From: Pseudoglutamicibacter albus
GTDB lineage: Bacteria > Actinomycetota > Actinomycetes > Actinomycetales > Micrococcaceae
Length of the DNA: 64,000 bases
Reading direction: 5' to 3'
Assembly: GCF_031458175.1 (NCBI RefSeq)
Contig: NZ_JAVDXX010000001.1
Location: 1,984,001-2,048,000 of the forward strand
Each line of letters starts with the position of its first letter. Within the stretch, counting starts at the first letter, position 1. This document shows, one piece after another, positions 44,905 to 47,572 of this stretch. Made by a program: the position numbers and the translations under genes. The notes beneath the pieces are model-generated. The model had not been told where the DNA came from. It searched no databases and saw only the letters and a list, made by a program, of their open reading frames with translations.

Positions 44905-46308
44905 CTAGATGCCGGCGTCGGCGGATTCATAGGCCATGTTGTTGAAGCGCGAGTAGTGGCCCTGGAACGCGACCACGATCGTCTTGGTCGGGCCGTTTCT
45001 GTGCTTAGCCACGATTACGTCGGCTTCACCTGCGCGTGGGGACTCTTTGTCGTAGATGTCTTCGCGGTGCAACAGGATGACCATGTCGGCGTCCTGCTCA
45101 ATCGAACCGGATTCACGCAGGTCGGAGACCTGTGGGCGTTTATCGGTGCGCTGTTCGGAGCCGCGGTTGAGCTGCGAGAGCGCGATGACCGGAACATCGA
45201 GCTCTTTAGCCAACAGTTTGAGCGCACGCGAGAACTCAGCGACCTCTTGTTGGCGCGATTCAACGCGTTTACCTGAGGACATGAGCTGCAGGTAGTCCAG
45301 CACCACGAGCTTGAGGTTGTGTTGTTGCTTGAGGCGGCGGCATTTCGCGCGGATCTCCATGAGCGTCATGTTCGGTGAATCGTCGATGAAGAACGGCGCG
45401 TTATTCAGTTGCGGGAGGGTGCGGGCGATCTTGGTCCAGTCCTCGTCGCGTAAGTCACCTTTACGCAGGTTTTGAAGCCCGACGGCGGTCTCAGCTGAGA
45501 GCATGCGCATCGCGATCTCGGTGCGGCCCATTTCAAGCGAGAAGAACACGGTGGTCATGCCGTTCTTGATCGCCGCGGAGCGGGCGATATCCAGCGCGAA
45601 GGTTGATTTACCAACTGCGGGGCGGGCCGCGACCACGATCATCTGGCCACCCTGGAACCCCTGCGTCAGCTCGTCCAGCTCATAGAAGCCCGAAGGCACG
45701 CCAGTGATTTCGTCGCCGGTCATCTGCCCTGCGGCCTCGATCTCATCGACCGTGGACTCCATGATCTCTGAGAGCAGCACGTAGTCTTCCGCAGTGCGCC
45801 GTTCAGCAACCTGCATGACCTCGGACTGGGCGTCGTTGACGATCGCATCGACCTCACCGTCGGCTGCGAAGGCCATCTGCGTGATGCGATCGCCCGCGTA
45901 GACGAGGCGGCGCAGGATGGCGCGCTCCCTCACGATCTCGGCGTAGAAACTCGCGTTCGCGGCCGTCGGAACGGATTGGATCAGCTCGTGCAGATAGGCC
46001 GCGCCACCGGCACGGTTGAGCTCACCGCTCTTGGTCAGGTGGCTCGAGACGGTCACCGCATCAGCCGGTTCCCCGCGGCCGTAAAGATCGGTGATCGCAT
46101 CAAAAATGATCGAATGCGCGGGCTTATAGAAATCCGATGAGCGCAGAATCTCTACACAGTCGGCGATCGCGTCCTGGGAGAGCAACATGCCACCCAGAAC
46201 CGACTGTTCAGCCGCTACATCCTGAGGCGGGACGCGCTCAGCAAGTGAGGACGCACCCGAGGATGATGCGCCTGCATCGCTGTAGTCGGCGTCGCTGTAC
46301 TGATCCAC
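44905..46308 (-). CDS. dnaB: Replicative DNA helicase DnaB
   Basis: 467 residues. An N-terminal DnaB domain (VLGGMLLSQDAIADCVEIL to about 120) and a RecA-like ATPase with Walker A RPAVGKSTFALDIA near residue 215 and Walker B VVLDYLQLM near 330 are complete; no intein interrupts them. It unwinds DNA at the replication fork as a hexamer. The GTG start has AGGAG. It lies downstream of a cluster of DnaA boxes and across from the ribosomal/ssb operon. Confidence 0.96.
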   Translation of the reverse strand: MDQYSDADYSDAGASSSGASSLAERVPPQDVAAEQSVLGGMLLSQDAIADCVEILRSSDFYKPAHSIIFDAITDLYGRGEPADAVTVSSHLTKSGELNRAGGAAYLHELIQSVPTAANASFYAEIVRERAILRRLVYAGDRITQMAFAADGEVDAIVNDAQSEVMQVAERRTAEDYVLLSEIMESTVDEIEAAGQMTGDEITGVPSGFYELDELTQGFQGGQMIVVAARPAVGKSTFALDIARSAAIKNGMTTVFFSLEMGRTEIAMRMLSAETAVGLQNLRKGDLRDEDWTKIARTLPQLNNAPFFIDDSPNMTLMEIRAKCRRLKQQHNLKLVVLDYLQLMSSGKRVESRQQEVAEFSRALKLLAKELDVPVIALSQLNRGSEQRTDKRPQVSDLRESGSIEQDADMVILLHREDIYDKESPRAGEADVIVAKHRNGPTKTIVVAFQGHYSRFNNMAYESADAGI

Positions 46309-46750
46309 TGTGCTCCTTCAACCTGTACTGTTCTCAGGCTCAGTGTAGGGCGAAAAAAACACAACACAACCCGAGTTATCCACAGCCCCTGTCGATAGTG
46401 TGTGGACTATTGTGGAACACACCGGTGGATATCCACTACTTCTGTGGATAACCTGGGGAAAACATCGCTGTGATCTTGCTTAAAATTAGCTGTATCCCGC
46501 GAGATTCCGCGGTTTTTTCTTGTGGATTATGAAGATGCTCTAGAAACTTTTCCCCAACCTTCAAGCACACGTGTCATGTTGACAAGAAGGATATCCACGC
46601 GATACACGCCTGAAACCCTAAGTTATCCACAGGTTTGGGCTAGTTACCCACAGACTCGCCCGAGTAGAGGTTGAAGGTTCGCCAACTCACCCTCGTGGAA
46701 GGTTGACGTGCCCACAAATGGGACTACATGAAATGGGGCTACATGCACAT
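46309..46750. promoter_or_regulatory. DnaA-box cluster upstream of dnaB
   Basis: Three perfect DnaA boxes TTATCCACA occur: 46376-46384 (+), 46443-46451 (-) and 46623-46631 (+). Near-matches are TGTGGATTA (46521-46529), TTACCCACA (46644-46652), TGTGGACTA (46401-46409) and a palindrome GTGGATATCCAC near 46426. A short AT-rich run lies at 46512-46530. The 442-bp region has no gene. It may control dnaB expression by DnaA, titrate DnaA, or belong to the replication origin. Confidence 0.65.
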
Positions 46751-46776
46751 GGGGCGGGCCCGAAAGGGCCCGCCCC
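46751..46776. terminator. GC-rich hairpin downstream of the PepSY lipoprotein gene
   Basis: A perfect 11-bp stem GGGGCGGGCCC/GGGCCCGCCCC closes a GAAA tetraloop. There is no T-tract on either side. It lies 38 bp beyond the stop of the minus-strand gene and should act as its terminator. Confidence 0.65.
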
Positions 46777-46814
46777 ACAAACTACCTTGCACTATTGCTT
46801 AGGCTTTTCCGTGC

Positions 46815-47456
46815 TTATTTGTCCTTCTTGAGGACCTGTCCGCTCTTGACGTCCACATAGACCGTCACGTCGGCGCCGCCACCCTCTGGGTAGATATCAA
46901 CTTCCCACATGATCTGGCCTTGCTCCTCGTCAACACTGACGTCATCGAGGGTGCCTGGGGTGTCCTTGAGCGCGGTCTCGATCGCCTTAGCGATTTCTAC
47001 CTTGATCGCGTCATATTCGCGGCGGTCATCGCTGTCTACGTCTTCGACTTCATCCTGGTTGGTGACCTTGGATCCGTCAGCGGCTACCTCGAGCTCGTGA
47101 CTCTTATTGCCCTTGACAACATCTACGCTCCAGCCGCTCTTATCGTCATCCCAGTCGAGGTCAACGACCTTTCCGCCAACTTCCTTTTCAGCGGTCTCGA
47201 TCGCCTTGAGAGCGTTCTGTTGGCTGCCACCCTTGGTTGGGGCTTGCGCGTTGTTGTCTGCAGAGTCCTTATCATCAGCATCGTCAGCGTCATCGGCGTC
47301 AGTGTTCTGCGCCTGCTGAGTCTCAGTCTGCTGAGTTTGGGTCTGCTGGGCGTCCTGGGTGGATTCGGAGGTTTTGTCCTCCGTTGGAGCACCGCAAGCG
47401 GCAAGAACCAGCGCGAGGGTTGCTACGGACGTGAGGGCTACATGTTTTCTCTCCAT
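46815..47456 (-). CDS. Lipoprotein with PepSY domains
   Basis: 213 residues from the ATG at 47456. The signal peptide ends in lipobox LAAC, followed by a Gln/Thr/Asp-rich linker with repeated DADDADDAD. Two PepSY units lie at about 85-135 (AIETAEKEVGGKVVDLDW) and 150-213 (AIETALKDTPGTLDDVSV). PepSY units are often found in secreted peptidase inhibitors. The protein is strongly acidic. It is preceded by no close gene on the same strand. Confidence 0.8.
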   Translation of the reverse strand: MERKHVALTSVATLALVLAACGAPTEDKTSESTQDAQQTQTQQTETQQAQNTDADDADDADDKDSADNNAQAPTKGGSQQNALKAIETAEKEVGGKVVDLDWDDDKSGWSVDVVKGNKSHELEVAADGSKVTNQDEVEDVDSDDRREYDAIKVEIAKAIETALKDTPGTLDDVSVDEEQGQIMWEVDIYPEGGGADVTVYVDVKSGQVLKKDK

Positions 47457-47572
47457 GGCCTCAATATACGCAGATCGGGACTCAGATAGCACTGCTTTTT
47501 TGCTCAGCTCTAAGCCAATCTGGATTAACTGCCCGCGTTTGCCCTATGATCAGCGCCTCCAAACAGCAGGCT

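Follow-up and report, generated by a model that had tools for sequence, protein, structure and literature searches.

The window analysed here is a stretch of 64,000 nucleotides from Pseudoglutamicibacter albus and corresponds to positions 1,984,001-2,048,000 of a single 2.22-Mb contig. It contains dnaB, encoding the replicative helicase, which is separated by a gene-free gap from a PepSY-domain lipoprotein gene lying upstream (Table 1). The identity of dnaB to its counterparts in two congeners is 92%, and the best relatives of the DnaB protein are found in the Micrococcaceae, e.g., in Arthrobacter, Sinomonas, and Kocuria. In four of the relatives' loci and in six of the sampled genomes, much longer open frames contain the DnaB matches in two or three separate blocks, a pattern that would be expected if dnaB carried inteins. 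The gap upstream of dnaB comprises 506 bp and has a G+C content of 50%, compared with about 60% in its surroundings. A scan of the region against Rfam gave no match and thus no known RNA element, and a megablast search against plasmids returned a single weak match, located inside dnaB only.

Table 1. Features of the dnaB locus and its upstream gap, with positions counted in the window.
Feature	Position	Strand	Remarks
dnaB, replicative helicase	44905..46308	-	467 aa, GTG start, GAAGGAG ribosome-binding site; Pfam DnaB N and DnaB_C
Gene-free gap between dnaB and PepSY lipoprotein gene	46309..46814		contains the whole box cluster
Predicted -10, TACACT	46342..46347	-	consensus; TAnnnT conserved in relatives
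Predicted -35, TTGTGT	46364..46369	-	16-nt spacer to -10; TTG conserved in relatives
Perfect DnaA box TTATCCACA, nearest dnaB	46376..46384	+	abuts -35; geometry conserved
Two-mismatch box CTATCGACA, inverted partner of promoter box	46390..46398	-	about 42 nt from -10
Two further two-mismatch boxes TAGTCCACA, TGTTCCACA	46401..46419	-	
Palindrome GTGGATATCCAC, two overlapping weak boxes	46425..46436		identical in 3/3 genomes of the genus
Perfect DnaA box TTATCCACA	46443..46451	-	
One-mismatch box TAATCCACA	46521..46529	-	
Two-mismatch box ATATCCACG	46591..46599	+	
Perfect DnaA box TTATCCACA, distal pair	46623..46631	+	conserved across Micrococcaceae
One-mismatch box TTACCCACA, distal pair	46644..46652	+	direct repeat, 21 bp from the 46623 box
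Perfect 12-bp hairpin at the end of the PepSY lipoprotein gene	46750..46777		terminator-like, putative function
PepSY-domain lipoprotein gene, upstream gene	46815..47492	-	same strand as dnaB; outside the system

An earlier note on this DNA had described a cluster of DnaA boxes beside dnaB with an extent of about 280 bp. The cluster is confirmed, as three perfect, two one-mismatch, and several two-mismatch boxes are located between 46376 and 46652. The measured extent of 277 bp agrees with the earlier figure, and all of it falls in the gene-free gap. About ten two-mismatch 9-mers are present within the surrounding 400 bp. Across 5,000 shuffles that preserved the dinucleotides of the gap, perfect boxes averaged 0.005 and one-mismatch boxes 0.13, and none of the shuffles contained three perfect boxes or five boxes with at most one mismatch. 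The note had offered, as grounds for its own rejection, that random intergenic sequence might be equally rich in boxes; the shuffles never match the gap, and the boxes at the dnaB promoter are present beyond chance. Pattern searches of the whole 2.22-Mb genome yielded 24 perfect boxes, compared with 10 for the reversed-pattern control, and no perfect box was found in a 136-kb sample elsewhere in the genome. Clusters of at least three perfect boxes occur, genome-wide, only at the dnaB site and at contig positions 2,080,052-2,080,484. At contig positions 670,402-670,425, two perfect DnaA boxes were noticed in inverted arrangement, separated by 6 bp. The pair precedes, by about 170 bp, an ORF that by eye resembles a CpaF/TadA-type secretion ATPase.

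Several other elements were noticed in and around the cluster. Repeated GGTTGAAGG / CCTTCAACC elements are located at 46315-46325, 46552-46566, and 46664-46680, with the two upstream copies being conserved in the genus. Between the two box groups, an element close to CCTAGTCA, which is not a DnaA box, is conserved in six other Micrococcaceae and may bind another regulator; it was not found in the genus of P. albus itself. A terminator-like hairpin with a T run at 46497-46512 on the plus strand was rejected as a feature, since one such element was found against a shuffle expectation of 0.6 and its stem is poorly kept in the congeners. No plus-strand gene was seen near it.

The boxes upstream of dnaB are shared widely. 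Averaged over 80 actinobacterial loci, 1.1 perfect and 1.9 one-mismatch boxes are present in the 900 bp preceding dnaB, compared with 0.035 boxes per 900 bp downstream of the dnaB start. Most of the downstream sequence is coding, and the comparison was therefore complemented by a second control, in which the letters of the box were permuted. A perfect box is present within 600 bp upstream of dnaB in 83 of 110 actinobacterial regions, and the next best of 1,680 permutations was found in only 11. The boxes of the cluster align one by one in the three genomes of the genus, the sequence farther upstream diverges, and the distance from the 46443 to the 46623 box is exactly 180 bp in every case. The distal pair at 46623 and 46644 is kept in the congeners and in several Micrococcaceae, where it recurs together with the proximal group at a spacing of roughly 170-230 bp. 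Many Micrococcaceae also have a good box at the position of CTATCGACA. Streptomycetes mostly possess one perfect box, located at the promoter, and in five relatives no box with one mismatch or fewer was found upstream of dnaB. Judged from these sequence comparisons, the cluster upstream of dnaB is real and evolutionarily conserved.

The position of the boxes relative to the promoter is likewise conserved. A strict sigma-70 scan detected no promoter above threshold on either strand, because both hexamers are weak. The dnaB promoter was recognised through conservation, as TTG and TAnnnT appear downstream of the dnaB-nearest box when relatives are aligned. Given an assumed start at 46335, this box spans about -49 to -41 and is situated directly upstream of the predicted sigma-A promoter. 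The arrangement was described as a composite consisting of a box, 4-8 nt, TTG, 16-19 nt, and TAnn[GC]T, and is present in 65 of the 110 actinobacterial dnaB loci. These include all 37 Streptomycetaceae, of which the Streptomyces loci are closely related and count as few independent events, all 16 Microbacteriaceae, in which the box has the opposite orientation, all three genomes of the own genus, and nine of 32 other Micrococcaceae. With 200 permuted boxes in place of the real one, the composite matched 0.055 loci on average and never more than one. In many other Micrococcaceae, the position of the inverted partner is occupied by a box, at a distance of 42 nt from the -10. If either box position is allowed, 82 of the 110 loci fit and 28 are without the geometry. 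Orthologous promoters thus share boxes at a fixed distance from the promoter elements, an arrangement for which no description was found in the literature searched.

In the genome of P. albus, the composite occurs once, at dnaB. The composite was defined after some of the tested sequences had been viewed, and a search of 296 genomes of the phylum with two strict composite patterns represents a more independent test. In this search, 13 genomes were matched, once each, and 11 of the matches lie in front of dnaB. They comprise all eight genomes of family f18, with sequences matching Streptomyces, and all three of family f17, which match Microbacteriaceae; the remaining two matches belong to remote lineages and lie away from dnaB. 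The strict composite is absent from family f19 of the genome sample, which possibly represents mycobacterial relatives. The dnaB upstream regions of f19 contain one-mismatch boxes in most members and perfect boxes in two.

The region upstream of dnaB is probably a DnaA-responsive control region of this gene. Such a role was among those considered in the earlier note and is strongly supported by the geometry fixed in three families, the conservation together with dnaB, and the published binding in Mycobacterium. In M. tuberculosis, DnaA binds upstream of dnaB, as determined by IDAP-seq, and in M. smegmatis it was located at the homologous dnaB-upstream site by ChIP-seq, which also revealed homologues of the same five DnaA sites (PMC7738170). 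DnaA binding upstream of dnaB is therefore already known in mycobacteria. In P. albus, DnaA is predicted to bind the distal direct-repeat pair (46623-46652) and the promoter-proximal group (46376-46451). From the box abutting the -35 and its weaker inverted partner, DnaA would either make contact with RNA polymerase or obstruct it, and the synthesis of the helicase would thereby track the level or state of DnaA. The distal pair would assist the promoter-proximal boxes in this regulation. Domain I of actinomycete DnaA dimerises, and its self-interactions have been proposed to link DnaA molecules on distant boxes (PMC13270200); a loop between the two box groups is thus conceivable here. Activation of dnaB by DnaA is slightly favoured by the location of the box in front of a weak -35, and repression is possible. 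With its distance of 37 kb from oriC, the cluster would double soon after initiation and would also take up some DnaA.

Replication initiation requires DnaA and DnaB together. If the cluster acts as a DnaA switch on dnaB with a spacing kept across families, the initiator would also set the supply of the helicase that it loads. A broader proposal, to which roughly even chances are given, assumes a conserved module in several actinobacterial families, consisting of a box abutting the -35, its inverted partner, and a distal pair, located about 180-230 bp upstream and connected by DnaA looping. Through this module, DnaA would directly set dnaB transcription and couple the supply of initiator and helicase. 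The dnaB site would then be one of the ancient origin-proximal DnaA sites (oriC, rpmH-dnaA, dnaB, and crgA) common to Micrococcaceae, Streptomyces, and mycobacteria.

A rather unlikely alternative is that the cluster serves chiefly to titrate DnaA near oriC, in the manner of the near-oriC clusters of Streptomyces or of datA in E. coli. According to this explanation, its early doubling lowers free DnaA and prevents re-initiation, and the adjacency to dnaB is incidental. The three perfect boxes 37 kb from oriC point in this direction, as does the presence of 11 of the 24 perfect boxes of the genome within 114 kb around the origin. According to PMC4585315, clusters of boxes near oriC act in S. 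coelicolor and B. subtilis to repress untimely initiation. The cluster offers several boxes of predicted high affinity at a presumably early-replicating position outside oriC, with affinity and timing deduced from sequence and position. However, a cluster acting purely as a sink would not have to keep a fixed distance to the dnaB promoter, yet the geometry is fixed in three families, and the single promoter box mostly retained by streptomycetes would be a poor sink. The box cluster could serve titration alone, and titration alongside dnaB control, a role likewise named in the earlier note, is compatible with the sequence data.

The suggestion in the earlier note that the cluster might be an extra start site is poorly supported, and a second or cryptic origin, at which DnaA melts the DNA and loads DnaB, is considered very improbable. 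The number and quality of the boxes equal those of the dnaA-dnaN gap, and a 40-mer with 70% A+T at 46513-46552 equals the corresponding value of that gap; this AT-rich part is, however, only partly conserved in the genus. The canonical gap is intact 37 kb away from the dnaB cluster (2,030.4 kb), with dnaA at contig positions 2,065,789-2,067,525 and dnaN starting at 2,068,010, and contains two perfect boxes and several weaker ones. It is expected to be the origin, and the boxes in rpmH-dnaA (2,065,539-2,065,671) and dnaA-dnaN (2,067,563-2,067,790) correspond to the expected dnaA promoter and oriC. Over 114 kb, the cumulative GC skew keeps falling through the dnaB region and reaches its minimum at 2,063 kb near dnaA, which serves as supporting evidence only, since the skew sampled around the chromosome is weak and mixed and cannot map the origin alone. 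The dnaB cluster thus lies neither at dnaA-dnaN nor at the minimum of this weak skew, and it is organised around a promoter. Chance enrichment in an intergenic stretch that is richer in A+T than its surroundings has a negligible probability, given that none of the 5,000 composition-matched shuffles reaches the cluster and that it is conserved across families.

Besides the dnaB control region favoured here, the origin-proximal part of the chromosome contains a second conserved group of boxes, near crgA. The richest DnaA-box cluster of the genome lies outside the window, at contig positions 2,080,052-2,080,520, and includes four perfect and several one-mismatch boxes in repeated modules. It is flanked by a rhomboid gene on one side and an SMR-type gene/crgA on the other and, going by the gene order, is presumably the positional counterpart of Rv0010c-Rv0011c in M. 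tuberculosis. A perfect box was found around the rhomboid gene in 22 of 30 loci, mostly from Micrococcaceae and including the own genome. Near crgA, each of four genomes from Streptomyces or Kitasatospora has two or three perfect boxes, and boxes were also noticed near this gene in Microbacterium genomes. In M. tuberculosis, the DnaA site Rv0010c-Rv0011c is linked to isoniazid tolerance, and the authors who described it saw nothing in other bacterial species that obviously corresponded to it (PMC7738170). The crgA-side cluster extends this site to Micrococcaceae and Streptomyces. Origin-proximal DnaA sites appear to be largely common to actinobacteria, and the shared sites provide a list of places bearing on the timing of replication in this group.

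Among known systems, the near-oriC clusters of Streptomyces coelicolor (Smulczyk-Krawczyszyn et al. 2006, J Bacteriol 188:6184) resemble the present one in being box clusters in the origin-proximal part of an actinobacterial chromosome. Of the S. coelicolor clusters, one may be situated near dnaB and one near crgA. The double DnaA boxes of E. coli are similar as close box pairs at regulatory sites (PMC11317965). In E. coli, tandem boxes separated by 2-3 bp are preferred, whereas the promoter pair in P. albus is inverted with a distance of 5 bp, and the distal pair is 21 bp apart from start to start. In Caulobacter, a distant relative, dnaB is preceded by predicted boxes and is among the DnaA-dependent genes (PMC8203912), a likeness that concerns boxes and dependence. 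The Rv0057-dnaB site of Mycobacterium shares with the P. albus cluster the presence of DnaA sites upstream of dnaB and near oriC in an actinobacterium, with binding being measured there and predicted here (PMC7738170). Its companion sites at oriC, rpmH-dnaA, and near crgA (Rv0010c-Rv0011c) also have counterparts in P. albus.
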